In this document: positions 10,480 through 41,803 of the stretch, one piece after another
Layout of the letters: the number at the start of each line of letters is the position of its first letter
How positions within the stretch are numbered: position 1 is the first letter of the stretch
DNA from: Fervidicoccaceae archaeon
Lineage (GTDB): Archaea; Thermoproteota; Thermoprotei_A; Sulfolobales; Fervidicoccaceae
DNA length: 64,000 nucleotides
Direction of reading: 5' to 3'
Assembly: GCA_038878695.1 (NCBI GenBank)
Contig: JAVZVD010000001.1
Location: 186,001-250,000, forward strand
Position numbers and translations under genes: made by a program
Notes under the pieces: model-generated
The model's input: the letters and a program-made list of their open reading frames with translations, nothing else
Told to the model about the DNA's origin: nothing
Databases searched by the model: none

Positions 10480-10553
10480 TGGGCCCGCGGGGAGTCGAAC
10501 CCCGGACCTCCGCCTCGTAAGGGCGGCGTCCTGACCAGCTAGACTACGGGCCC
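10480..10553 (-). tRNA. tRNA-Val (anticodon UAC)
   Basis: Minus-strand cloverleaf: acceptor GGGCCCG/CGGGCCC, anticodon stem CCGCC/GGCGG around loop CTTACGA (anticodon TAC), T arm CGGGG-TTCGACT-CCCCG, discriminator A. No intron and no encoded CCA. The T loop differs by one base from the tRNA-Val(CAC) and tRNA-Met genes in this window. Confidence 0.95.
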
Positions 10554-21152: not shown

Positions 21153-21923
21153 ATGAGGCGCGACCTCTATGAGCTGGTCAGAGCGTGGACAGGCATAGAT
21201 TATCTCTCAGACCTGCGGGCAAGAGAGCTAGCTCGACATTTGGCCGTGAAATACGGCAGAGAGCGCCTGCTTTCACCCAATGAGCTCGAGAGAGGAAAGT
21301 GCTTCGTTGCGGCCGGGGCCGGGCCTTCATTAAGAGCGAAGTCGGCTCTGGTCGAGGCCCTTGTTGAAGAAAAAGACTGCGTAGTCGTAGCGGCCGACGG
21401 CGCTTACCGCTTGCTCAGTGCGCGGCCTAACATCGTGGTCACGGATCTCGACGGCTTAAGCCTCGCCGAGTTGCTCGACGCGTCATCTCGAGCTGTTCTG
21501 GTCATTCACGCGCACGGTGATAACTTGCGAGAGCTCCTCTCGCTCGTCCCCCCTCTCCTGAGAGGGGGGGCGCGAATCCTCCTGACTTCTCAAGTGGGCT
21601 CCTCGCCTCCAGTCTACGACATCGAGGGCTTCACCGACGGCGACCGCGCTGTTGCGCTAGCTGGCGCGCTAGCTGAGCGCGAGCTTTACTTGATCGGTAT
21701 GGATCTCGGTCTACAGCACCTTGAGAGCTCACTCGCGCCTCGGGGACGGCCTCTTTTTTCCGTAGCCAAGATGAGAGCCGCGATGTGGTTGCTCCGAGAG
21801 ATGCTATGCGAGCTTTCGAGTAGAGTGCGCGTGGTGAATCTCTCGTACACGCCTTTTCCATGTTCCGAGGAAGAGCGGCCCCAACTCTACTCCCCAGCGA
21901 CAGCCAGAGAGGCGTTGCGGTAA
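21153..21923 (+). CDS. mptE: 6-hydroxymethylpterin diphosphokinase, MptE-like
   Basis: DUF115/MptE-type enzyme that makes 6-hydroxymethyl-dihydropterin diphosphate, a step in archaeal methanopterin or tetrahydrofolate-like cofactor synthesis. Key motifs: AAGAGPSL, VVTDLDGL, HAHGDN and GFTDGDRAV. 256 aa is close to the family size. It follows gcvPB by 6 nt; the glycine system needs a tetrahydropterin one-carbon carrier, so the adjacency makes sense. The 3' end overlaps the convergent thioredoxin-like gene by 37 nt. Confidence 0.85.
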   Translation: MRRDLYELVRAWTGIDYLSDLRARELARHLAVKYGRERLLSPNELERGKCFVAAGAGPSLRAKSALVEALVEEKDCVVVAADGAYRLLSARPNIVVTDLDGLSLAELLDASSRAVLVIHAHGDNLRELLSLVPPLLRGGARILLTSQVGSSPPVYDIEGFTDGDRAVALAGALAERELYLIGMDLGLQHLESSLAPRGRPLFSVAKMRAAMWLLREMLCELSSRVRVVNLSYTPFPCSEEERPQLYSPATAREALR

Positions 21924-22417
21924 AATGTTATAGCCTCATTGAATAGTTTGAATATCTCGTCTGCGGCAGTGGGAGGGACTCCCTTATAAAGTATCGTCAT
22001 GTTGTATATTACCATCAGGGTGGGGCTCTGATAAATCGAATACGCATTGAAAGTTGCGCGCGCGGTGGGGTCTGAGCATGAGATCGCGAACCATGTGCAC
22101 ACCACTTCGACGAGCGTGAAGTTCTCTCTCCCATATTTCTTAGCGAAGTCCTCCCAAGTTGGGTCGAAGGCTCTGCAGGCGGGACACCTCAGATTATTGA
22201 AGTACACTATATAGCCTCCGTTGTCGGGGGGAGACCAGAAGTAGCCGTCGAGTTTGACTCTGGTCCATCTGCTTTCGGTTAACACGTAGACCCCCTCGGA
22301 GCTTACCTCGTAACTCTTTTCCAGAAGGGATCCAATCAGTGGGAGCAAGTACCCGGCCAATAACACGAGCACTAAGAGTGCTCCGAGAGTCGCCGCGAGC
22401 AATCGCGTAAGTCTCAT
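21887..22417 (-). CDS. Membrane-anchored thioredoxin-fold protein
   Basis: N-terminal TM segment (residues 5-27) followed by an extracytoplasmic thioredoxin-like domain with a CPAC motif (Cys78-Cys81) after the strand YIVYFNNLR and a cis-Pro loop QSPTLMVIYN. Two further cysteines (about 108 and 115) could form a structural disulphide. Probably a thiol oxidoreductase acting on secreted proteins. ATG start at 22417. 176 aa. Confidence 0.8.
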   Translation of the reverse strand: MRLTRLLAATLGALLVLVLLAGYLLPLIGSLLEKSYEVSSEGVYVLTESRWTRVKLDGYFWSPPDNGGYIVYFNNLRCPACRAFDPTWEDFAKKYGRENFTLVEVVCTWFAISCSDPTARATFNAYSIYQSPTLMVIYNMTILYKGVPPTAADEIFKLFNEAITFYRNASLAVAGE

Positions 22418-22776: not shown

Positions 22777-23519
22777 GCTGAGACCAGCTTTCTGCAGCTC
22801 TCCACGATCTCTTGGAGGGCCTCGAGGGCTTTGATCGCCTGATCTCGACTCACTACTATCATTGTGTCGGTGTAAGAACTTATCACCTGCGTTATGTTTA
22901 TGCCCCTATTGAATAGATGTCTGGAGATGTGGCTAATAACGCCGGGAGTTGTGGTTATTTCGTGTGGACTTATGAGGACTATTATCGATTGACCTGTGAG
23001 CTGCTCAAGCACTTCCTCCTCGCTCAATTTGCGGACGATCTTAGAGGCGTCTTCTGAGCTGATCGTCACGGTATAAAATCTCTTCGACTCGACCAGACTG
23101 AAGAATCTGCTCTCGGAAGCGAGTCTCAGTAGGTCCGGCATGAGCTGCTCTGCCGCGTGCCTCCGGATGGTGATGACGGTTATATCGTCTTGGAGCTCGA
23201 TCGAGCTTCGAGCCAGCACCTCGATCACACTTTTCCTTTCTATTTCAGCCTCATTCTTTAATTCATCATGATATCTTATCAATGCAGCTTTTATGGCATC
23301 AACGTTGACTCTCTTGCGTCCGGAGAGCTTGAGGACCTCGCTCATTATTTTCTCTGATGCCCAGGTATAGTTGACGACCCCCATTCTGAGGCACTCGAGG
23401 AGAGGGATGTTCAAGTCGATGATCTTCCTAACGACTTCGGCTATGGGGATCTTGCCTACGTGTTCTTCTGCTCTTTTCTCCCTTCCTCGCTCCACCAAAT
23501 CCTCCGGCCCGACGCTCAC
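22734..23519 (-). CDS. ACT-domain regulatory protein
   Basis: A 261-residue protein with an N-terminal helical region (residues 20-110, IAEVVRKIIDLNIPLLECLR) and a C-terminal ACT-like tandem; the second repeat holds TTPGVISHISRHLFNRGI and SSYTDTMIVVS. ACT domains bind amino acids or other small ligands. No enzyme domain is attached, so it is likely a ligand-sensing regulator. GTG start at 23519 is supported by a TATA box about 22 nt upstream (leaderless). Confidence 0.8.
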   Translation of the reverse strand: MSVGPEDLVERGREKRAEEHVGKIPIAEVVRKIIDLNIPLLECLRMGVVNYTWASEKIMSEVLKLSGRKRVNVDAIKAALIRYHDELKNEAEIERKSVIEVLARSSIELQDDITVITIRRHAAEQLMPDLLRLASESRFFSLVESKRFYTVTISSEDASKIVRKLSEEEVLEQLTGQSIIVLISPHEITTTPGVISHISRHLFNRGINITQVISSYTDTMIVVSRDQAIKALEALQEIVESCRKLVSAHASRTSTARSSQT

Positions 23520-31408: not shown

Positions 31409-32080
31409 TTGAAGAGCGCTATGGGAGATGTAGAGGGAGAGCTTGAGGTCATTCTCACCAGGATTAGGGAGCAGCTCGACGGACTGGAGAGAGCGAGAGA
31501 TTCTGCGGTGAGGCTGTCCAGAGATCTCGTGAAGCTTTCGGGGAAGGTCGTCACGTGCGTGATATCCGGCGAGCTCGCCGGCCTTGTCGAGCTTCTACGG
31601 AAGCTGGAAGAGGCGAAGAGCGCCCTCGCATCACTCGTCTCGGAGCGCCCGGCTCTGCTCTATGGAGGCCCGATCGTAAGTGCTCTAGCCGAATACGCCG
31701 AGGCCAGGATTCTCCACGACCTCGTGGTACTCGGCAAGCTGCCGAGCGAGTTAGAGCTAAGCGTGCCGCCCGCTTCATTTCTGCTGGGCCTCTGCGACGT
31801 CATTGGCGAGCTCCGTAGACTCTCACTCGAGCACGTGAGAGCCGGTCGCCTCTCTGAAGCGTGGAGTGCTCTCGATCTCATGGAGATCATATTCTCCAAC
31901 GTATCAACGTTAGATTATCCCGAGGCCGTGGTGCCTGGCCTGAGGCATAAGATCGATTTAGCCCGCAGATTAGTCGATGACACGAAGACCCTCTTGGTGG
32001 AGCTAGACAGCAGAGAGAAGCTCGAGCGCGCGCTGCGCTCTATGAAGGAAACGATTAATAGGCTCGGCCCGAGCACGTGA
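31409..32080 (+). CDS. Translin-family RNA-binding protein
   Basis: Matches the archaeal translin family (COG2178): AEYAEARILHDLVVLGKLPS, PASFLLGLCDVIGELRRLSLEHVR and LDYPEAVVPGLRHKIDLARRL broken over helices 4-7. Eukaryotic translin binds nucleic acids and, with TRAX, cleaves RNA; the archaeal role is not established. 223 aa, all-helical. Start TTG 31409, alternative ATG 31421. tRNA-Met begins 52 nt after its stop without an obvious own TATA box, so it may be transcribed from this unit. Confidence 0.8.
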   Translation: MKSAMGDVEGELEVILTRIREQLDGLERARDSAVRLSRDLVKLSGKVVTCVISGELAGLVELLRKLEEAKSALASLVSERPALLYGGPIVSALAEYAEARILHDLVVLGKLPSELELSVPPASFLLGLCDVIGELRRLSLEHVRAGRLSEAWSALDLMEIIFSNVSTLDYPEAVVPGLRHKIDLARRLVDDTKTLLVELDSREKLERALRSMKETINRLGPST

Positions 32081-32132: not shown

Positions 32133-32232
32133 GGGCCCGTAGCTCAGCCTGGCAGAGCGCCCGGCTCATAGGGCCTTCACCTCTTCGCTTTGAGAGACCG
32201 GGCGGTCCGGGGTTCGAATCCCCGCGGGCCCA
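32133..32232 (+). tRNA. Elongator tRNA-Met (anticodon CAU) with 26-nt intron
   Basis: Acceptor GGGCCCG/CGGGCCC, D arm GCTC/GAGC, anticodon stem CCCGG/CCGGG, T arm CGGGG-TTCGAAT-CCCCG, discriminator A. The anticodon loop CTCATA is interrupted after position 37 by an intron 32171-32196. A bulge-helix-bulge fits: helix CTCA (32165-32168) with TGAG (32191-32194), bulges TAG and AGA. It lacks the three G-C pairs of initiators in the anticodon stem. Confidence 0.93.
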
Positions 32233-32253
32233 TCAAGTAGGCCGACGCAAGCA
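32204..32253 (+). repeat. 50-nt perfect repeat, copy 1 (tRNA-Met 3' end plus flank)
   Basis: Identical base for base to 41754-41803. It covers the T arm and acceptor 3' strand of tRNA-Met (29 nt) and continues 21 nt past the discriminator base. The non-tRNA part starts TCAAGTAGGCCGACG. Confidence 0.95.
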
Positions 32254-32307
32254 GATTTAAATGCCTCGAACTCTCGATGTCCTCTTCTACGTAGGAGGAG
32301 CTCGCGT

Positions 32308-32694
32308 TTGCCTACATGGAATTCGGAGAGCGCCCGCCCGCGGATAATTCGTAGCCAGAGGCTCTTCGTGGCGCTAACCGGGACCGGAGAGAAGCCTTTC
32401 CTTGAGTACGAGGTCGATGAGGTCGCGAAGAAGTTGAGGATCCTGAGAACCTATGTGCCGCCCAGAATGCGAGGGAGGGGTCTGGCGAGGATCCTCCTCG
32501 AGGAGGCTCTCTCCTTCGCCCGCGAGAGGGGGCTCTCGGTCGAGCCTCTCTGTAGCTACGCGCTCCAATATTTCGTTGCAAATCGCGAGGCACGCGATAT
32601 GTTGATTGAGGAGCTGAGGGGGCTCTCCGACGAGGAGTTGAAGAGGGCTCTAAATGAGAGAAGATCGTGGGAGAGCTCTGAGAACAGGGGCTGA
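32308..32694 (+). CDS. GNAT-like N-acetyltransferase (YidJ/YjdJ type)
   Basis: Small GNAT protein of the short family recognised by EKPFLEYEVDEV, RTYVPPRMRGRGLA and ALQYFVAN with Cys/Ser motif VEPLCSYA before it. The CoA loop MRGRGLA is intact. 128 aa. TTG start at 32308 has an AGGAGGAG ribosome binding site 7 nt upstream, and a TATA-like GATTTAAATG lies at about 32254. Substrate unknown. Confidence 0.82.
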   Translation: MPTWNSESARPRIIRSQRLFVALTGTGEKPFLEYEVDEVAKKLRILRTYVPPRMRGRGLARILLEEALSFARERGLSVEPLCSYALQYFVANREARDMLIEELRGLSDEELKRALNERRSWESSENRG

Positions 32695-32711
32695 AGAGGC
32701 TAAGTCTCCGC

Positions 32712-33443
32712 TTAGGCCCCGCTAGCCGCGCCTCTCGAGTTCGAGGGCTCCTGCTCTTTCTCTAGGATCTCCACATAGACTATCTTCTTGGCCCACTCGA
32801 AGTACTTGAACACATCGCGGGCGAGAGCCCTTTTCGCGAGCTGGATATCCGGGCTTCCTTGCTCCTCTCTCGGAATAGTTACTTCCACGACCCCCGATTC
32901 CTTATCGAGTTTTAGCGCGAACCCCTCGAGGTTCTTCGGCCTGAACCTCCTCTTCAGGAGGTACTTGATCTTTTCCTCGTCATCGAGCAACCTCTTCACG
33001 ATCTTCGTTCTATACTCTATGCTCTTGCCTGCGAGCGGGTGGTTGAAGTCCACCGTGACCCTTCCGCCACTGATGTCACGTATCACCGCCGGGACTCCAC
33101 CGATACTCACCACCTTGCCCGGCGCGACCTCGACGTTGGATCTTTTGAACTCCCTCAGCGGTATCACTCTGATTTTGTTGGGATCTCTGAGGCCGAAGGC
33201 CTTCTCCGGTGGAACCGTAAAGGTCTTCTCTTCGCCCTCGTTCATGTTCGTGAGCTCTTCCTCGAAACCTCGAACCATTCTGCCCTCGCCGATTACGACG
33301 AGAACCGGGCCGTATTCTCTGTCCTCTTCATATTTGCCACTCCGCTTAGCCTCCTCCGGGTCCGTGGTCTCGACGAGCTCGCCCGTCTCCTTTATCCTAG
33401 CCGTGTACTCGACCAAAACGAATTCTCTATGGCCGAGCGGCAA
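32712..33443 (-). CDS. FKBP-type peptidyl-prolyl isomerase (SlyD-like)
   Basis: Long archaeal FKBP: FVLVEYTARIKETGELVETT at the start, the flap insert domain around AFGLRDPNKIRVIPL and VDFNHPLAGKSIEY, then an about 80-residue C-terminal extension. It accelerates proline isomerisation and acts as a folding helper in the cytosol. 243 aa fits the long (26-29 kDa) archaeal class. TTG start at 33443. Confidence 0.9.
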   Translation of the reverse strand: MPLGHREFVLVEYTARIKETGELVETTDPEEAKRSGKYEEDREYGPVLVVIGEGRMVRGFEEELTNMNEGEEKTFTVPPEKAFGLRDPNKIRVIPLREFKRSNVEVAPGKVVSIGGVPAVIRDISGGRVTVDFNHPLAGKSIEYRTKIVKRLLDDEEKIKYLLKRRFRPKNLEGFALKLDKESGVVEVTIPREEQGSPDIQLAKRALARDVFKYFEWAKKIVYVEILEKEQEPSNSRGAASGA

Positions 33444-33563
33444 AAGTGACCTCCTCCGAAGCTACCGAGCTTGCCATTCCCAGCGGAGCAAGCGCCTATA
33501 AATCGTTGCGATCTTGAGAGTGCCTGAGGGCGGCAGCAAGGAGCTAGAGGGCTGGCTTCCTGT

Positions 33564-34583
33564 TTGATGGACGCGCGCTGCTCCTGCGAGACTTGCTCCC
33601 AAGTATTCGAGCTCGAAATATCGACCGAGGCACTGCGCATGGCTAGTGAGCGCGGTTATCCTCCCTACATGGTGGAGCGGTATCTCCGTCTCTTAGGATC
33701 TTCGACCGAAGTGGCCGAGTTCCTGGAAAGCGTCGAGAGAGGAATTCCCAAAACCATAAGGTGCAATACGCTGGCCATCGACGATTGCGCTGAACTCAAG
33801 GAGAGGCTCGAAAGGCGCGGCGTGACGCTCGAAAAGATACGTTGGCTTCCTCATGGCTATCGCGTGCTCTCGGGGGTCGACGTCATTGGTCGCCTCGAGG
33901 AACACATCTACGGCCTCTATTACATACAGGGACCCGGCAGTATGGCTGCTTCGTACGTCCTAGACCCGAGGAGAAACTCTCTGGTCGCGGACTTGGCTGC
34001 CGCTCCCGGAGGAAAGACCACACACTTGGCGCAGCTCATGGAGAACACCGGAGCGATTCTGAGCGTCGATAAGAGCAGAGCTAGGATCCGCGCTCTGATT
34101 TCCAACGTGCAGAGAATGAGGGCGACGAACGTGGTCGTACTACTTGAAAATATGTTGAAACTGAGGGGACTAGATGGTCTATTCGATAAAGTGCTCCTAG
34201 ATGCTCCGTGCAGCGGCGAGGGCCTGCTCCCAGTCAAAGAGGAGAGGAGGTACGTGAGGACCTTGTTGGACCTGGCTAAGATGTCATCGTTACAGGTCAG
34301 AATGTTAGAAAAGGCCGTTGAGCTAGCTCGCGATGGAGGTCACGTGCTCTACGCGACTTGTAGCATAGGCATAGAAGAGAACGAGCTAGTGATCCATCAC
34401 GTTCTCGAGCGAAGAGAGGACCTCGAGGTTCTAGACAGTAGGCTGAACGGCGTCGGTGAAGCCGGGGTGACCGAATACGGAAGAGCGAGACTGCGAGACG
34501 AGCTACGGAGATGCTCTAGGCTTTACCCTCACATACACTCAACGGAGGGGTTCTTTCTTTGCCTCCTGAGAAAGAGATCGTGA
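33564..34583 (+). CDS. RNA (cytosine-5)-methyltransferase, NOL1/NOP2/Sun family
   Basis: SAM-dependent m5C methylase: SAM motif LVADLAAAPGGKTTHL, motif IV LLDAPCSGEG and motif VI YATCSIGIEENE, giving the two catalytic cysteines. The N-terminal 100 residues are the typical RNA-binding region (IPKTIRCNTL). Target (tRNA or rRNA) cannot be set from sequence. TTG 33564 or ATG 33567. The next gene starts inside its last 25 nt, so the pair forms an operon. Confidence 0.9.
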   Translation: MMDARCSCETCSQVFELEISTEALRMASERGYPPYMVERYLRLLGSSTEVAEFLESVERGIPKTIRCNTLAIDDCAELKERLERRGVTLEKIRWLPHGYRVLSGVDVIGRLEEHIYGLYYIQGPGSMAASYVLDPRRNSLVADLAAAPGGKTTHLAQLMENTGAILSVDKSRARIRALISNVQRMRATNVVVLLENMLKLRGLDGLFDKVLLDAPCSGEGLLPVKEERRYVRTLLDLAKMSSLQVRMLEKAVELARDGGHVLYATCSIGIEENELVIHHVLERREDLEVLDSRLNGVGEAGVTEYGRARLRDELRRCSRLYPHIHSTEGFFLCLLRKRS

Positions 34584-35107
34584 GGAGGAGCTGCGAAGTC
34601 GGAGGAGAGGCTTTAAGGCTCTTGGAGGAGGCTCTGGGAGTGCGGAGTTTATCCGAGGCGCTGGACTGCAACGAATTGCTCTGTGTTAAGAGGGGGGATG
34701 CCACCGATTTGTTCTGTGTAACCGACAGCCTCTCGCAACTCATCGAGAGAATAGAGCGAAGTTGCGAGCCGCTAGTCGGACTCACGCACGCGGGTATATT
34801 GCTCGGATCAATGAGAGGTGAGCTCTTTGAACCGTCGATTCATTTAGCATATGTTCTAGCGAGAATGATCTCCCGGAGAAGGCTTGAGCCGCGAAGGGGG
34901 ATCGCCGTGGTCCTGGGCCCTGGCGAGGGAGTGTTCACGCGCTCAAAGGTGGTCGGGCGACCTCTATATGAGTTAAGAGGCGCCAACGATCTTAATCTCT
35001 ACTTGGTGCTCTCAGAGAGAGGCGACCCCCTTGGGTGGGGAAGAATCGAGAGGGGGCGCCTCGTTCCCCTCGTCGACAGCGGCTGGTTCCTCAGGGCGGG
35101 CGGTTGA
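34559..35107 (+). CDS. Nip7-like protein with PUA domain
   Basis: Resembles Nip7/UPF0113: N-terminal alpha/beta region ending in LVGLTHAGILLG, then a PUA-type RNA-binding domain with VVLGPGEGVFTRSKVVG, GDPLGWGRIE and the end DSGWFLRAGG, which parallels the Nip7 C-terminus. Nip7 takes part in ribosome biogenesis. TTG 34559 sits 8 nt after a CGGAGGGG ribosome binding site and overlaps the upstream methylase gene by 25 nt. 182 aa is near family length. Confidence 0.75.
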   Translation: MPPEKEIVRRSCEVGGEALRLLEEALGVRSLSEALDCNELLCVKRGDATDLFCVTDSLSQLIERIERSCEPLVGLTHAGILLGSMRGELFEPSIHLAYVLARMISRRRLEPRRGIAVVLGPGEGVFTRSKVVGRPLYELRGANDLNLYLVLSERGDPLGWGRIERGRLVPLVDSGWFLRAGG

Positions 35108-35124
35108 GACTTAGACCGGGCAAA

Positions 35125-35136
35125 GGCTTTAACACC
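35125..35136 (+). promoter_or_regulatory. TATA box of tRNA-Lys
   Basis: GGCTTTAACACC about 30 nt before the mature tRNA 5' end. A near-identical AGCTTTAATGCC precedes tRNA-Val(CAC). Confidence 0.65.
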
Positions 35137-35160
35137 GCTGCGGAGAGAGGAGAAATTCAA

Positions 35161-35234
35161 GGGCCCGTAGCTCAGCCAGGTAGAGCAGCGGGCTTTTAAC
35201 CCGTTGGTCCCGGGTTCGAATCCCGGCGGGCCCG
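35161..35234 (+). tRNA. tRNA-Lys (anticodon UUU)
   Basis: Acceptor GGGCCCG/CGGGCCC, D arm GCTC/GAGC, anticodon arm GCGGG-CTTTTAA-CCCGT, T arm CCGGG-TTCGAAT-CCCGG, discriminator G. No intron and no encoded CCA. Confidence 0.95.
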
Positions 35235-35267
35235 CGAGCTTCTCCTCGAAGGCGTGGTGCCCTCGGC

Positions 35268-36050
35268 TTGAGAAAGCCGGTCATATACTTCATTGGCGCA
35301 GGCCTGGCGCCTTCTCACGTGACTCTCGAGGCTCTAAGCGCGTTATCATCGGTAGACCTCATTCTCGTCGAGACGTACACGAGCTTCGTGGATTGGGACC
35401 TAACAGCTCTGATTAAGCGAATCGCGCCGTTCGCCGAAGTGGTCCCAGTCTCGAGAAAGCTGCTCGAGGAGAATAGCGAGGAAGTAATTAAGGAGGCCAT
35501 TGAGAGGGGGGCCCTCGCGGTGGTCTCTCCCGGGGACCCATTCGTAGCCACCACACACACTGCACTCAGGTTAGAGGCTGCGAAGCGCGGCGTGAAGGCG
35601 ATCTACGTGCCTGGCACGAGCGCGCTCCACTACGCTTTCTCGGCAGCTTGCTTATCGATCTACAAGCTCGGGGGCTGCGCGACCGTCGTTTATCCGAAGT
35701 GGGGGATCCTCAGCGAGAGTGCCTACCTGCTTGTACAGATGAATAGGGAGAGGGGGCGCCACACGTTCCTCTTTCTCGACTTGGACGAGGAGCTCGGTCC
35801 CATGGATCCGAGCCAAGCTCTGCGCCTTCTCCTCGAGGCGCAGAGGAGGCTCGGAGGGTCCGCGTTGAGCCCCTCGGAGAAGATCGTCGTGTTGCAGAGG
35901 CTGGGTCTGCCTCGGGAGAGAATATACTATGTGACGATCGAGAGCGCGTTAAGTAGGGAGTGGAGAGATCCGCCCTACTCCATTATTATTCTTGGCCAGC
36001 TCCACCCGGTTGAGAGTGAGTGCCTGGAGGTAGTCTCGCGAGATGAGTGA
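35268..36050 (+). CDS. dphB: Diphthine synthase
   Basis: SAM-dependent methylase that modifies the EF-2 histidine on the way to diphthamide. Recognised by YFIGAGLAPSHVTLEAL, ILVETYTSF, VVSPGDPFVATTHTALRL and PGTSALHYAFSAACLSIYKLG pieces of the tetrapyrrole-methylase fold. 260 aa is normal. TTG start at 35268, 33 nt after tRNA-Lys; its end overlaps the next gene by 8 nt. Confidence 0.95.
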   Translation: MRKPVIYFIGAGLAPSHVTLEALSALSSVDLILVETYTSFVDWDLTALIKRIAPFAEVVPVSRKLLEENSEEVIKEAIERGALAVVSPGDPFVATTHTALRLEAAKRGVKAIYVPGTSALHYAFSAACLSIYKLGGCATVVYPKWGILSESAYLLVQMNRERGRHTFLFLDLDEELGPMDPSQALRLLLEAQRRLGGSALSPSEKIVVLQRLGLPRERIYYVTIESALSREWRDPPYSIIILGQLHPVESECLEVVSRDE

Positions 36051-36774
36051 GCTCGGAGGCGGCGCTCAGTTTGGACTCGAAGAGCGGGTCTCGACTTACG
36101 CAGCATCGGTCGAGAGAGCGCTCAAGCTCCTCGAGACTCAACTAGCTCAACTTAGCTCGGAGGAGAAGGCCGTCGTAGAGTTAGCGCGTCTATACCTCGA
36201 GGACGCGAAGTATTATTGGGGCTTGGGGGATCTCGCGACGGCCCTCGCAGCCGTCTCGTACGCCGAGGGCCTGATCGACGCACTAGCGCGTTTGGGCAGG
36301 ATCTCGATCGAGTGGAGGAGAGCAGCCGTTCCGAGGGTTGTCGTGGCGGGCACGTTCGACCTCCTACACCCTGGCCACGTATGGTTGCTCCGTAAGGCGT
36401 CCGAGATAGGCGAAGTCCACGTCATAGTGGCGAGGGACTCGAGCGTCAGAAAGTTCAAAGGGAGGGATCCCATCGTCCCCGAGGACTCTAGGCTCTACAT
36501 TATTGAGAACCTGAAGCCCGTGAGGAGAGCTCATCTAGGCGATCCTGAGGACTACCTTAAGCGCGTGGTTGAGCTCAAACCAGATGTGGTGCTCCTCGGC
36601 CCGGACCAGTGGCCGCGCGAGCCCGAGCTGGAGGCTGAGCTCAGAGCCCGGGGTCTCAGGGACGTGAGGATCGTTAGGGTGAGCGAGAGACTTGAAACGA
36701 CGTGGCCCAACAGCAGCACTCAACTCATCTCGAGGATCCTGGAACAGTTCTGCCGAGAGGAGTCGAAAGGATGA
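36043..36774 (+). CDS. DUF357 / cytidylyltransferase fusion (RibL-like FAD synthetase)
   Basis: Residues 1-90 are a helical DUF357-type domain; from residue 102 a nucleotidyltransferase domain begins with GTFDLLHPGHVWLL (HxGH motif), RKFKGRDPIVPEDSRL and VVLLGPDQW. The second part matches archaeal RibL-like FAD synthetase, which adenylates FMN. With the riboflavin kinase gene at 6450, both steps to FAD may be in this window. ATG 36043; stop overlaps rtcA by 4 nt. Confidence 0.82.
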   Translation: MSELGGGAQFGLEERVSTYAASVERALKLLETQLAQLSSEEKAVVELARLYLEDAKYYWGLGDLATALAAVSYAEGLIDALARLGRISIEWRRAAVPRVVVAGTFDLLHPGHVWLLRKASEIGEVHVIVARDSSVRKFKGRDPIVPEDSRLYIIENLKPVRRAHLGDPEDYLKRVVELKPDVVLLGPDQWPREPELEAELRARGLRDVRIVRVSERLETTWPNSSTQLISRILEQFCREESKG

Positions 36775-37838
36775 TACACGTAGATGGTAGCATCGGCGAG
36801 GGGGGAGGTCAGATACTGAGAACCGCCCTCGCCCTCTCTGCCGTCTCGGGCAAACCTATCAAAATCTACAACATTAGGGCCAAGAGAAGCAATCCCGGCC
36901 TCCAGAGACAGCACTTAATGGGAGTCAGAGCCGTAGCCGAGCTTTCCCGAGCGCGAGTCCGAGGAGCCGAGCTCGGCAGCACCGTCCTCGAGTTCGAGCC
37001 GGGGGGGCTAAGAGGAGGGAAGATCGAACTCGACATAGGCACGGCAGGCAGCGTCACCTTAGTGCTTCAAGCAGTGATGCCGGTGCTGCCCTTCCTCCCC
37101 GAGCCGGTCGAAATCATCGTGAGAGGGGGCACCGATGTGCCATGGAGCCCGACGATAGATTATGTGAGGTTCATCGTCGTTCCCCTACTGCGCTTCATGG
37201 GCTTAGAGCTCAACGTCGAACTACTCAAGAGAGGACACTATCCACGCGGCGGCGGCCTCGTCAGGTACGCCGTGCGCGAGCCCCCCGGCGAGTTGAGAGG
37301 TCTTACGCTTGAGGAGCGCGGGAGGGTCTTTGCCGTGAGAGGCTTATCCCACGCCGTGCTGCTGCCAGAGCACGTCGCCAGGAGGCAGGCCTTCTCCGCG
37401 GAAGAATATCTGCGCTCGAGATTGGGGGGAGTGGATGTCGACATTCGAATCGAGCACGCCCCGAGCGGAGCGTTGGGTCCCGGTAGTGGGATCACTCTCT
37501 GGGCCGAGTGTGAGAAGAGCCTATTGGGCTCGGATTCGCTCGGCCAGAAGAGCAAGAGAGCGGAGCTGGTCGGAGAAGAAGCCGCCACGAAGCTTTTGGA
37601 GGATCTCCTCACAGGAGCCGCCCTCGATAGATACATGAGCGACATGATCATACCTCTCCTAGCACTAGCGAAGGGGGTGAGCGTCGTGAGAGGAGCCAGG
37701 TACACTCTCCACGCTCAGACCAATGTGGAGATTGTGAGGATCCTGCTCGGTGATGAAGTCGAGATCCGTGTAGAGGGCGAGGCTGAGAGACCCTTCAAAT
37801 TGATGGTGAAAGGCTCGTCTAACATCAGAAGATCTTAG
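36771..37838 (+). CDS. rtcA: RNA 3'-terminal phosphate cyclase
   Basis: Makes 2',3'-cyclic phosphate RNA ends with ATP. Start motif MIHVDGSIGEGGGQILRTA, then NIRAKRSNPGLQRQHL and the RxGxYPxGGG-like RGHYPRGGGLV; the nucleophile His is in the late HAQTNVEIVR-like region or nearby. 355 aa is full length. ATG 36771 is preferred over the open frame from 36702, because it overlaps the preceding stop as ATGA and begins at the conserved N-terminus. Confidence 0.92.
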   Translation: MIHVDGSIGEGGGQILRTALALSAVSGKPIKIYNIRAKRSNPGLQRQHLMGVRAVAELSRARVRGAELGSTVLEFEPGGLRGGKIELDIGTAGSVTLVLQAVMPVLPFLPEPVEIIVRGGTDVPWSPTIDYVRFIVVPLLRFMGLELNVELLKRGHYPRGGGLVRYAVREPPGELRGLTLEERGRVFAVRGLSHAVLLPEHVARRQAFSAEEYLRSRLGGVDVDIRIEHAPSGALGPGSGITLWAECEKSLLGSDSLGQKSKRAELVGEEAATKLLEDLLTGAALDRYMSDMIIPLLALAKGVSVVRGARYTLHAQTNVEIVRILLGDEVEIRVEGEAERPFKLMVKGSSNIRRS

Positions 37839-38373
37839 AAGTTGGTGGCTCGTCTGTACTCAGTAGCTGCTTCATACGCTCTATTATCCCCGCCTCCCTG
37901 ATTATTCTAGCGACGGCTCTCGGCACGAGGTCATCCCACTTCCCGCCCTCGATCATCATCTTCCTTATACGGACCCCACTCATCTGCTCTCTCATATAAA
38001 AAGGGGGCTCGTGGACGGGGTAACCTTTCTCGGAAAACAGTCTCTTGACGAGAGGGTTTCCGGAGATAGCGCAGTGGAACCTGGGGATCAGCGTCTCGAG
38101 ATAGCTCACCCATAGGCTATTATATTGTATGTCCGGTACTGGGATTATGATGAATCTCTCCAATGGTAGTCCCTCCTCTTTAATGGACTCTCTGAGAGCG
38201 AGGATCCTCTCACCAGCCGTCATTGGGTTGGTCAGCGTGTGACTCTTCTCCGCACTGCCCACCACTACTACGATCTCCTCGGCCAAATTGAGCGACCACC
38301 TGAGAGCGTAGAGGTGGCCGAGGTGGGGTGGTTGGAACCTCCCGGGAAACACTGCTCGTTCGTAGACTCTCAT
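37825..38373 (-). CDS. nadM: Nicotinamide-nucleotide adenylyltransferase
   Basis: Archaeal NMNAT: FPGRFQPPHLGHLYAL (HxGH), VGSAEKSHT, NPMTAGERI and the C-terminal MSGVRIRKMM signature. It joins NMN and ATP to give NAD. 182 aa is normal. The ATG at 38373 lies in the loop of a 17-nt hairpin (38366-38382), so initiation may be affected by RNA folding. It converges with rtcA, overlapping 14 nt. Confidence 0.95.
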   Translation of the reverse strand: MRVYERAVFPGRFQPPHLGHLYALRWSLNLAEEIVVVVGSAEKSHTLTNPMTAGERILALRESIKEEGLPLERFIIIPVPDIQYNSLWVSYLETLIPRFHCAISGNPLVKRLFSEKGYPVHEPPFYMREQMSGVRIRKMMIEGGKWDDLVPRAVARIIREAGIIERMKQLLSTDEPPTSKIF

Positions 38374-38382
38374 TAAGAGTCC
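38366..38382 (-). promoter_or_regulatory. Hairpin enclosing the nadM start codon
   Basis: Minus-strand GACTCT-TAATG-AGAGTC, a 6-bp stem with the nadM ATG in the loop. A second copy, GCTCT-TAATG-AGAGC, is at 38586-38600 with the outer base pair changed from A-T to G-C. Confidence 0.5.
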
Positions 38383-38462
38383 CTCGACCTTTCGAAGCTA
38401 CCTTGACTCTCAATTTTCTTTCTCCCTAAGCTTCTCTTATCCTCCAACACGCACCTGTACTT

Positions 38463-38486
38463 GTTCCACTTGAAATTGAGGGGTCT
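38463..38486 (+). repeat. CRISPR-like degenerate repeat, copy A
   Basis: Begins GTTCCACTTGAAATTGAGG. It matches copy C at 20 of 24 positions and pairs with inverted copy B through a perfect 14-nt arm (38463-38476 with 38559-38572). Confidence 0.7.
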
Positions 38487-38547
38487 CGCGAGACGCCTCC
38501 TCCGAATTACGGGGGAAAAGATCGAGAGCATCGATGTAAACATCAAT

Positions 38548-38572
38548 GGAACCCCCTTATTTCAAGTGGAAC
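38548..38572 (-). repeat. CRISPR-like degenerate repeat, copy B (inverted)
   Basis: On the minus strand it begins GTTCCACTTGAAATAAGG, identical to copy A over the first 14 bases and diverging afterwards. Together with copy A it frames a 110-bp inverted-repeat unit. Confidence 0.7.
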
Positions 38573-38736
38573 GTTTGGAAGGGCGCTCTCATTAAGAGCC
38601 CCCAACCCCTTCTCTTCCTCTGGAACTCCCTTTCAACGCTCTTGGTAGCGAGATATCAAAAACACGATGTACATTTTGTTTGGCTAACTCGAGCTCGTTC
38701 TCTCTTTCATTCACTCTGAAGCACGACAGCGGATAG

Positions 38737-38761
38737 GTTTCCATTTGAAAAAGAGGGGTCT
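38737..38761 (+). repeat. CRISPR-like degenerate repeat, copy C
   Basis: Begins GTTTCCATTTGAAAAAGAGG and ends with GGGTCT like copy A. On the minus strand it ends in GGAAAC, an ending seen in many CRISPR repeats. It lies 7 nt after the exchanger stop codon. Confidence 0.65.
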
Positions 38762-38768
38762 AATGGCT

Positions 38769-39854
38769 TCAGATTTGGAGCACGAATACTATGATGCCGT
38801 ATGTGATGAACCAAGCTAGGCCGAGAGCCATGACTTTCGTTGATATATAACCCTTTCTGATGTAATAGAGGATCAATAACACTATTGAGAGAGTAGCCAT
38901 CACGCTCAAGTATGCATGTATGTCGAGGTGCCAGGGGACGACTAGCATGCCGAGACCTGGATAGAATGTAGCGTACAGTATATTTTCACCCACCACCGCA
39001 CCAACGGCTAGCGTATCTTTACCACGATAGGCCCATATCATAGCGCTCATAGTCTCCGGGATCGCCGTAGCGGCTGGGGCTAAAATCACCGCGGCTCCGA
39101 GAGGGCTGACTCCGACCTCTTTTGAGACTACATCTATAGACTCAACGAGGATCTCGGAGCCGTAGTAGAGCACCAAGACTGCAACGAGGAGCTGGAAGAG
39201 GGCTAGCCCGAGCGGGTGTCCTCGCCTCCTTAGGAATTTATAGAAGTAGGGATCCTCAACCTCACTTTCCTCACTTTCGACTCCGAGCCTCCTCCTTCTA
39301 TACATTAGAGTCACGTAGTAGATGTAGAAGCCTAGGAAGATCGCCCCCAATACATGTTGTAATCCGGCTCGTATCTTCAAAGCGTCAGGCAATAATGTGA
39401 GCGGGAATAATATGGCCATGAAGGTGTAGGGGATCGCTAGAGTTCTCTCTACTTCTAAGACCATATCGTTACGTTTTCCAACTCTATAACCCAATATCAT
39501 AGCTATTAGGACAAGGCCGTAAGCTAGAGAAGACGCCATGAAAGGTTGCCCGTATAGAGTGCCTATGCCTATCTTCTCGCCGGCAGCGCCGCCGTATGCG
39601 AATACCGCTACTAGGAACAACACCATTTCTGGGATAGATGTGAAGAGCGGAGCCAGTATCGCGCCAACAAACGACGCACCCCACCTCATTCTGTGACCAA
39701 CATACTCGATCGCGTTGACGAAAATGTAGGCTCCAATGAATACTACGACCATTCCGAGCGGCAGCTCAAGCAGAGCATAGAGTAGTTCGCTCTCCAAGGC
39801 TCGACCCCAACTTCTTTTTACATTAGCCGATGGTGATGAGAGAAGTTGGGGCAT
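38769..39854 (-). CDS. CaCA-family cation exchanger
   Basis: Sodium/calcium exchanger family membrane protein with two inverted halves, each carrying the alpha-repeat core: LAPLFTSIPEMV in the first and LAPAATAIPETMSAM in the second. Ten or so hydrophobic segments with an acidic cytoplasmic loop (ESEESEVEDP) between halves. The usual G-T/S-S-x-P-E motif is varied to FTSIPE and ATAIPE. The frame opens at ATG 39854, but residues 1-23 are polar and encode a hairpin; TTG 39797 directly before TM1 is an alternative start. Confidence 0.85.
   Translation of the reverse strand: MPQLLSSPSANVKRSWGRALESELLYALLELPLGMVVVFIGAYIFVNAIEYVGHRMRWGASFVGAILAPLFTSIPEMVLFLVAVFAYGGAAGEKIGIGTLYGQPFMASSLAYGLVLIAMILGYRVGKRNDMVLEVERTLAIPYTFMAILFPLTLLPDALKIRAGLQHVLGAIFLGFYIYYVTLMYRRRRLGVESEESEVEDPYFYKFLRRRGHPLGLALFQLLVAVLVLYYGSEILVESIDVVSKEVGVSPLGAAVILAPAATAIPETMSAMIWAYRGKDTLAVGAVVGENILYATFYPGLGMLVVPWHLDIHAYLSVMATLSIVLLILYYIRKGYISTKVMALGLAWFITYGIIVFVLQI
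39805..39851 (-). promoter_or_regulatory. Inverted repeat at the 5' end of the exchanger gene
   Basis: CCCCAACTTCT (39805-39815) and AGAAGTTGGGG (39841-39851) form a perfect 11-bp stem with a 25-nt loop, right after ATG 39854. If translation starts later this is a structured mRNA leader. Confidence 0.6.
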
Positions 39855-39896
39855 TAATAAGCATGTAAAATTTTGTGAGTAGAGAAGAGGAGATGG

Positions 39897-40436
39897 TTAG
39901 AGCCTCGAGCACTCTCTCATAATATTGGGGGGCTTGATCCCCCGCTGCCCCTGGTAGACCCCAGCATAAGGCCTTTGCACGGGGGTCGTGAGCCTTGAGA
40001 ATATCAAATGGACGAATCTCTCACCTGCGTAAAGCCTGATGGGGAAGGATCCTCCCATCACCTCGATGGTTATAGTACCCTCAAAGCCCGCGTCTACTAT
40101 AGTTGGTGGGATCTTGAGGCCTAGCCTCGCGTAAGTGCTCCTCAAGTTCACGAACGCCATGAGGTCGTCGGGCAGCTTCAAGTACTCTATCGTGGAGAGA
40201 AGGACGTGTTCGCCCGGCCAGACGACGAAGCTCTCCCCTCTCTCGATCACATAGAAGTCCTCCAAGCAGCCCCCCGATCTCACATCGAGGATCTCGGGGC
40301 TGCGTCTCAATCTGGCGATCTCGGGAGCAAGCCTCAGGTCGAGGCCGTTCTCTCGCACTATCTCCTCGTAGTAGGGCGAGACCACAAGCCTGCCGCTCTC
40401 TATGTAATAGCGTAGATCTCGATCGCCGAGTATCAC
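39897..40436 (-). CDS. dcd: dCTP deaminase
   Basis: Trimeric dUTPase-fold enzyme that deaminates dCTP to dUTP (or to dUMP in bifunctional forms). Motifs LRSTYARLGL, TIVDAGFEGTITIEV (catalytic Glu) and the C-terminal AGVYQGQRGI. ATG start at 40436. 179 aa is normal. Divergent from trpS. Confidence 0.93.
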   Translation of the reverse strand: MILGDRDLRYYIESGRLVVSPYYEEIVRENGLDLRLAPEIARLRRSPEILDVRSGGCLEDFYVIERGESFVVWPGEHVLLSTIEYLKLPDDLMAFVNLRSTYARLGLKIPPTIVDAGFEGTITIEVMGGSFPIRLYAGERFVHLIFSRLTTPVQRPYAGVYQGQRGIKPPNIMRECSRL

Positions 40437-40531
40437 GTGGCGACCACCTGCTCCTACCTCGCCCGAAGGCTCTGAAGGCTCTCGCGAATAGAAATATTAA
40501 ACTCGGGGGGTACCTCCATCGCGGCGTCTCC

Positions 40532-41668
40532 GTGAGGGGATGCGATATTGTGGCTCGGAGAGACGAGGGGATCCTCGACCCATGGGGCGAGGTCGTCCTC
40601 AGAGATTATGAGAAGCTCTTCAAGTTATTCGGTATAAGACCCTTCAGAGAACTACTGAACTCACTCTACTCGCCTCACAGATTAATGAGGCGCGGCGTCG
40701 TCTTCGGGCATAGGGACTTCGATGTTACGCTGGCTGCTCTCAAGCGCGGCGAGCTCGTGGCTCTCCTCACAGGCTTTATGCCCAGTGGAAAAATGCACTT
40801 CGGTCACAAGATACTAATAGATCAAATGATCTACTATCAAAGCCTCGGAATACACATAATCATGGTGTTGGCCGACATAGAAGCCTACGTCGTCAGGCGC
40901 GTCCCGAGGAGCGAGGCGTTGAGGCTGGCCTACGACGAGTATGTAGCAAATGCCATAGCGTTGGGCCTTAAGGACTCTAACCTCAGAATATACTTCCAAT
41001 CTAACGTGGAACCCCCGGCTTATTACAGGCTTGCTCAGATGCTCAGTCAGAAAGTAACGAGAGCAGAGATGGAGGCCGTATACGGTGAGATCACGCCGGC
41101 CAAGGTAATAGCGTCGCTTACGCAGGCGGCCGACATTCTCCACCCAATGCTTCCCGAATATGGGGGATACGACCACGTCTTCGTGCCGGTGGGACCGGAT
41201 CAAGATCCTCACATAAGGCTAACGAGGGACCTCGTCGATAGATTACACAGGGAGCTTAATCTCTCGAGACCCGCCTCCACCTATCATAGATTCATGACGG
41301 GACTCGATGGTGGTAAAATGAGTAGTAGCAGGCCCGACAGCGCGATCTTCTTGACGGATCCGATAGAAGTCTCATTGTCTAAATTCATGAGAGCTCTGAC
41401 CGGGGGTAGAGCGACGGTCGAGGAGCAGAGAAAATTTGGTGGAGATCCCGATAACTGCACAGTCTTCGAGATGTACGTGTACCACCTAGTTGAGAGTGAT
41501 GAGGAACTTGTTAAAATCTATGAGGACTGTAAGAGCGGTAGGCTGCTCTGTGGCGAATGTAAGCTCATGGGAGGCGAGTTATTAACCAAGTGGCTCGAGA
41601 CGCATCATCAGAGGCTCGGTGAGGCGAGGGAGATAGCGAGGAACCTCGTGAGACCTCCGAGCTTTTAG
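40532..41668 (+). CDS. trpS: Tryptophanyl-tRNA synthetase
   Basis: Class I synthetase of the archaeal/eukaryotic TrpRS type: PSGKMHFGH in place of HIGH and GGKMSSSRP as the KMSKS motif. 378 aa fits. Start GTG 40532 lies about 35 nt after a TATA box (AATATTAAAC, near 40495); GTG 40550 is an alternative because GAGGGGA lies 9 nt before it. tRNA-Val(CAC) follows 40 nt downstream. Confidence 0.95.
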   Translation: MRGCDIVARRDEGILDPWGEVVLRDYEKLFKLFGIRPFRELLNSLYSPHRLMRRGVVFGHRDFDVTLAALKRGELVALLTGFMPSGKMHFGHKILIDQMIYYQSLGIHIIMVLADIEAYVVRRVPRSEALRLAYDEYVANAIALGLKDSNLRIYFQSNVEPPAYYRLAQMLSQKVTRAEMEAVYGEITPAKVIASLTQAADILHPMLPEYGGYDHVFVPVGPDQDPHIRLTRDLVDRLHRELNLSRPASTYHRFMTGLDGGKMSSSRPDSAIFLTDPIEVSLSKFMRALTGGRATVEEQRKFGGDPDNCTVFEMYVYHLVESDEELVKIYEDCKSGRLLCGECKLMGGELLTKWLETHHQRLGEAREIARNLVRPPSF

Positions 41669-41672
41669 CAGA

Positions 41673-41684
41673 AGCTTTAATGCC
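41673..41684 (+). promoter_or_regulatory. TATA box of tRNA-Val(CAC)
   Basis: AGCTTTAATGCC, about 30 nt before the tRNA 5' end and nearly the same as the tRNA-Lys box. Confidence 0.65.
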
Positions 41685-41708
41685 CCAAAGCAACGAAAAA
41701 CGGGAGAA

Positions 41709-41782
41709 GGGCCCGTAGTCTAGCTGGTCAGGACGCCGCCCTCACGCGGCGGAGGTCCGGGGTTCGAATCCCCGCGGGCCCA
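41709..41782 (+). tRNA. tRNA-Val (anticodon CAC)
   Basis: Acceptor GGGCCCG/CGGGCCC, anticodon arm CCGCC-CTCACGC-GGCGG, T arm CGGGG-TTCGAAT-CCCCG, discriminator A. No intron, no encoded CCA. Its 3' half and downstream flank are identical to those of tRNA-Met. Confidence 0.95.
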
Positions 41783-41803
41783 TCAAGTAGGCCGACGCAA
41801 GCA
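41754..41803 (+). repeat. 50-nt perfect repeat, copy 2 (tRNA-Val 3' end plus flank)
   Basis: Identical to 32204-32253 and in the same orientation. 29 nt belong to the tRNA and 21 nt are flanking DNA. The other tRNA-Val gene (UAC) does not share the flank. Confidence 0.95.

Follow-up and report, generated by a model that had tools for sequence, protein, structure and literature searches.

The window analyzed here is a stretch of 64,000 nucleotides (nt) from a Fervidicoccaceae archaeon of hyperthermophile type (GenBank assembly GCA_038878695.1, contig JAVZVD010000001.1, positions 186,001 to 250,000). Two of its tRNA genes, tRNA-Val(CAC) and one that is very probably tRNA-Ile2(CAU), have 50 nt in common, which span their 3' ends and the DNA just beyond. 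An earlier reading by a model that saw only the letters and their open reading frames (the sequence-only reading) described a perfect direct repeat of 50 nt reaching 21 nt past both tRNAs; comparison of window 32204-32253 with 41754-41803 confirms this at 50/50 letters. Each copy is made up of the 3' end of a tRNA (29 nt) and the 21 nt that follow, here called the trailer, and the identity stops at mismatched flanking bases, C/A before the repeat and G/T after it. The tRNA genes and repeat copies are as follows.

32133..32232, + strand: very probably tRNA-Ile2(CAU), called tRNA-Met by the sequence-only reading and by ARAGORN (run with introns); Rfam tRNA, 56.8 bits; Ile(GAU)-like body
32171..32196, + strand: intron of this tRNA, 26 nt, directly 3' of the anticodon; ARAGORN intron call; the joined exons give a 74-nt tRNA
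32204..32253, + strand: repeat copy 1, composed of the tRNA 3' 29 nt (32204-32232) and the 21-nt trailer (32233-32253)
41709..41782, + strand: tRNA-Val(CAC); ARAGORN; Rfam, 68.2 bits
41754..41803, + strand: repeat copy 2, composed of the tRNA 3' 29 nt (41754-41782) and the 21-nt trailer (41783-41803)
10480..10553, - strand: tRNA-Val(TAC), the same as tRNA-Val(CAC) at 71/74 positions; different trailer

The name tRNA-Met for the first gene did not hold up. ARAGORN does call it Met(cat) with an intron, but the mature body is of the Ile type: once spliced, it is nearly identical to the tRNA-Ile(GAU) of the same genome (C3:2266-2339) and of relatives, with CAU as its anticodon. Besides an Ile(GAU) gene, a CAU gene with an Ile-type body is present in each of three relatives (G002, G003, and G004), and a second CAU gene of this genome, at C2:22890, has a Met-type body. 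Because an Ile(GAU)-type body is combined with CAU here, as in the relatives' CAU genes, the gene at 32133..32232 is very probably tRNA-Ile2(CAU) and not tRNA-Met. Its C34 would presumably carry agmatidine.

tRNA-Val(CAC) is an ordinary tRNA gene. Three of its 74 positions differ from tRNA-Val(TAC), of which two lie in the anticodon region and the third is position 60. That position is an A, in agreement with Ile2, and A9 and T20 are as in tRNA-Val(TAC) and unlike tRNA-Val(GAC). By sequence, tRNA-Val(CAC) thus looks like a mosaic of a Val(TAC)-like part and an Ile2-like A60. The earlier remark that the UAC-reading valine tRNA lacks the shared flank and differs in its T loop was correct; it has another trailer and one T-loop difference.

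The signal lies in the trailer, and the 29-nt tRNA part is unremarkable. The last 29 nt are common to 10 of the 820 pairs of tRNAs within the genome, and the same T arm and acceptor stem are found in Ile2 of G004, G011, G015, and G016 and in Val(CAC) of G003. An intron-bearing tRNA on the minus strand (C3:39881-39909 and upstream), which carries ∼45 extra nt and was missed by Rfam, has the same 29-nt end as tRNA-Ile2 and tRNA-Val(CAC), followed by a different trailer. Comparison with the relatives therefore indicates that the 29-nt end predates the sharing event, so that the trailer alone needs explanation. A search of the whole genome (1,112,410 bases, 5 contigs) for the trailer, a check proposed with the original observation, gave two places only at ≤3 mismatches, and a reversed-pattern control gave none; within the window, the same two matches compare with 0.00 expected from 100 shuffles. 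Given the trailer base composition, ∼3e-10 pairs among 41 tRNA genes would be expected to have 21 trailer bases in common by chance. The tract of identity exceeds tRNA conservation by these 21 nt, which is a mark of gene conversion. Misassembly was set aside: the 50-nt repeat is shorter than the usual read length, and the neighbor of Ile2 is the same in G002, G003, and G004.

To place this pair among others, we surveyed the flanks of 170 tRNAs, comprising 41 from this genome, 42 from G002 and 41 from G003 (same family), and 46 from G034 (same order); the last three, with 129 tRNAs, were drawn from a set of 39 relatives. The set of 41 consists of the Rfam tRNA rows above the cut-off (41 of 43), excluding two below it and tRNAs missed by Rfam, such as that at C3:39881. 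Starting at the tRNA end and moving outward, we scored flank identity at +1/-2, over 45 nt (3') and 30 nt (5') in this genome and about 150 nt in the others. Pairs between genomes, in which exchange is not expected, served as the control; among 10,829 of them, the score reached a maximum of 11 on either side. Above this maximum were 4 of 3,536 within-genome pairs for the 3' flanks (scores 14, 20, 21, and 144, with Ile2/Val(CAC) at 21) and 4 of 3,536 for the 5' flanks (scores 13, 16, 18, and 26). The pair with a score of 144 is tRNA-Val(GAC) and tRNA-Val(TAC) of G002 (C1:656633-656706 and 743965-744038), which share a 250-bp block at 97.6% identity from the exact tRNA 5' end to ∼176 nt past the 3' end; their 5' flanks are unrelated. 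The other six pairs, from our reading of their anticodons, are Leu/Leu (twice), Gly/Gly (twice), Ala/Ala, and Glu/Asp (in G003). Thus, flank sharing among the tRNA genes of this order affects the 5' as well as the 3' side and mostly involves isoacceptors. The presence of both kinds favors recombination, since attachment (att) sites, lying at tRNA 3' ends, would account for one side only, and recombination between tRNA genes looks recurrent and fairly ordinary in this group. In addition, three tRNA-Leu genes of G002 (C1:349074, 697926, and 864851) have partly diverged common 3' flanks that resemble older exchange tracts.

The surroundings of the two tRNA genes differ in their conservation. Each has a protein-coding gene upstream.

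31409..32080, + strand: PRK14562-type gene adjoining tRNA-Ile2; NCBIfam; tblastn at the Ile2 loci of G002, G003, and G004
40532..41668, + strand: trpS, as named in the sequence-only reading, upstream of tRNA-Val(CAC)

The PRK14562-type gene is kept beside Ile2 in G002, G003, and G004, with the tRNA inverted in G002. Downstream of trpS, G002, G003, and G007 have a homologue of window 21887-22417; in the genome under study, tRNA-Val(CAC) is found there. None of the window's genes lies within 1.5 kb of the Val(CAC) genes of G002, G003, and G004. As far as these neighborhoods tell, tRNA-Ile2 has stayed in its old location and tRNA-Val(CAC) lies at an apparently lineage-specific synteny break.

We consider the 50-nt repeat to be most likely, though with moderate confidence, a short ectopic recombination tract between tRNA-Ile2(CAU) and tRNA-Val(CAC), formed by gene conversion or break repair. 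This reading is favored by the exact identity of the trailers, the available seed homology, the recurrence of flank sharing in relatives, the lack of a mobile integrase in the searches described below, and the mosaic-like tRNA-Val(CAC), and also by the valine pair of G002, whose 250-bp block is bordered by unrelated 5' flanks. In such an event, a DNA end left by breakage or stalling within one of the tRNA genes would pair with the other gene via the conserved T arm and acceptor stem, a homologous seed that was available because the 29-nt end is already present in Ile2 and Val(CAC) of relatives. Synthesis would then copy the remainder of the gene and run 21 nt into the flank of the donor, and the end on the far side would be resolved without homology, leaving a patch in the recipient by one-sided gene conversion or by break repair with rearrangement. 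The donor may have been tRNA-Ile2, to which we give a slight preference because its locus is syntenic in relatives and that of Val(CAC) is at a break.

Several observations weigh against this account. The distal end of the tract is nonhomologous, whereas a conversion tract is usually bounded by homology at either end. The trailers are not conserved in relatives, so the direction of exchange cannot be read from them, and among eight genomes of the family, this one included, we found no second member of the genus by which the event could be polarized. Since Val(CAC) of G002 and G003 has A60 as well, this base is no proof of transfer. Among the seven shared-flank pairs besides Ile2/Val(CAC), six are isoacceptors and the seventh is Glu/Asp, so that an Ile/Val pair is unlike most. 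Finally, similarity of 5' flanks could partly be functional, as these flanks hold promoters.

The repeat could instead be the relic of an attachment site, if a virus or plasmid whose attP matched the tRNA 3' end plus 21 nt had integrated at one or both tRNAs, remade their 3' ends, and later been lost. A tRNA 3' half with some flank is the classical shape of an archaeal att site; SSV1 leaves a 44-bp direct repeat (PMC3293823). Such tRNA ends are known viral targets, as seen in the fusellovirus Betafusellovirus yellowstonense, whose integrase gene contains a 28-nt match to this tRNA end (92.9% identity); the match is confined to the tRNA part. However, no phage or plasmid match extends past query base 41 among the matches listed, and the exact trailer was not found in viral contigs or genome contigs. 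Both repeat copies adjoin complete tRNAs, neither belongs to a tRNA fragment, and the genome holds no third copy. As first described, the 9.5 kb between the copies is housekeeping sequence without an integrase: a Pfam scan of 10 of its 11 protein genes gave GNAT, FKBP, an RsmB/F-type methylase, UPF0113 PUA, the tetrapyrrole-methylase family (dphB in the original description), two nucleotidyltransferase-like genes, RtcA, an Na/Ca exchanger, and dCTP deaminase; the remaining protein gene is the one named trpS, and a tRNA-Lys is also present. The proposed search for integrase genes elsewhere did find a tyrosine recombinase, though not an integrase of an element. The PF00589 family has one match in the genome at E ≤ 1, on a contig other than that of the repeat. 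The 266 residues translated from it fit the archaeal XerA model best, at 196.7 bits, which is short of the cut-off of 220 set for that model. PF00589 matches over the cut-off occur in 6 of 8 genomes of the family, one in each; G002, the genome with the 176-nt shared 3' tract, also has one. Since the lone recombinase is XerA-like, both tRNAs are complete, and there is no third copy, the repeat is probably not an attachment site of an integrative element, and relatives share 5' flanks too, which is not expected from att sites at tRNA 3' ends. We therefore regard an attachment-site relic as unlikely, and the old integration or excision event once suggested for this repeat is unsupported.

Duplicative relocation is another way to arrive at the present arrangement, and one that we find rather unlikely. 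In a single rearrangement, Val(CAC) would have been built anew at the trpS break from a Val(TAC)-like 5' part and the Ile2 3' part with its trailer. The near identity of the Val(CAC) body to tRNA-Val(TAC), the changed neighbor of trpS, and the position of the relatives' Val(CAC) genes away from the window's genes are in line with this. On the other hand, Val(CAC) is present elsewhere in relatives, which makes it an old gene that may simply have changed position, and synteny often breaks at tRNA loci; in a comparison of two Staphylothermus species, this applies to 20 of 45 tRNA pairs (PMC3218864). It is very improbable that selection keeps the 21 nt identical for a function in 3'-end processing, in termination, or as a trailer-derived RNA. 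Such a function would account for the exact identity of the copies, and the start of the tRNA-Pro(TGG) trailer is similar (11 of 13 aligned columns identical, with one mismatch and one gap), but this similarity only equals the 99% point of shuffled sequences, and with 39 trailers compared it is not significant. The trailer of tRNA-Val(TAC) also resembles the shared one by eye, and it too does not stand out from shuffled sequences. The shared trailer follows 2 of 41 tRNA genes in the genome, and in the 39 relatives it has a single match, with 3 mismatches, at a locus without a detected tRNA (G023:C1:346631). A blastn search of the tRNA end plus flank against the same relatives gave no match extending >∼7 nt past the tRNA end outside the genome under study, among the matches listed. 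RNA structure of the trailer does not go beyond shuffles (z of -0.42, 0.43, 0.06, and 1.82), and no Rfam family lies in it; a promoter and terminator scan found nothing, but it was of the bacterial sigma-70 type and says little for this archaeon. A general tRNA 3' processing or termination signal is rejected on the count of 2 of 41 and the virtual absence from relatives; the sequence-only reading had itself tied such a signal to a flank following most tRNA genes. Of the three origins it proposed, the conserved signal thus fails and integration lacks support, leaving past gene conversion as the best supported, in keeping with the within-genome sharing of flanks on both sides of tRNA genes in relatives.

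Two tRNA 3' halves of this genome, at C2:∼22816-22876 and C3:∼73310-73382, match the 3' half of a tRNA-Gln of G034; neither has a 5' half nearby, and each is downstream of a T-rich, TATA-like stretch. No tRNA-Gln gene is among the 41 tRNAs, and by sequence the two halves look like candidate split tRNA-Gln genes. Their 5' halves were not found in an incomplete search that rescanned selected loci only. The tRNA at C3:∼73039-73242 is, by elimination, probably that for Trp; its intron exceeds 100 nt and, as judged by eye, may contain a box C/D-like RNA. None of the 41 Rfam tRNAs was recognized as an initiator tRNA-Met, a gene that may be rich in introns, be split, or fall within an assembly gap.

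Parallels to this tract are known. PMC4981973 describes how ectopic gene conversion leads to concerted evolution among tRNA genes and states that remolding is rare in Archaea, even between isoacceptors. The tract reported here resembles that gene conversion in the copying between dispersed similar tRNA genes and in its anchoring in the tRNA body. It differs in that the two genes serve two amino acids and have only the 3' third of the body in common and in that the tract is visible through its overshoot into the flank; compared with remolding, it is a converted patch with no switch of anticodon. According to PMC3293823, att sites of the SSV1 and pNOB8 types are likewise direct repeats of a tRNA 3' end and short flank, of similar length, but at our locus there is no element, element integrase, or tRNA fragment, and both tRNAs are complete. 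A paper on split tRNAs and synteny in Desulfurococcales (PMC3218864) places tRNA loci at synteny breaks in these related archaea, as at Val(CAC); unlike in our case, the available parts describe no shared trailer. A narrow literature search gave no paper on shared archaeal tRNA trailers by title or start of the abstract, which does not imply that none exists.

Conversion between tRNA genes is generally deduced from bodies of identical sequence, which selection would produce as well; flanks outside the gene report on recombination itself. A tract between tRNAs of two amino acids gives the reach of exchange without a change of anticodon. More tentatively, and with considerable doubt, the tRNA genes of this order may exchange sequence by one-sided homologous recombination often enough for flank tracts to serve as a clock and map of these events, including those between Ile and Val and between Glu and Asp (in G003). 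If so, conversion across amino acid identity would be a standing hazard, which tRNA introns and split tRNA genes may limit. Should the pattern hold across the order, tRNA flanks would provide a simple measure of ectopic recombination for archaea that are difficult to cultivate.

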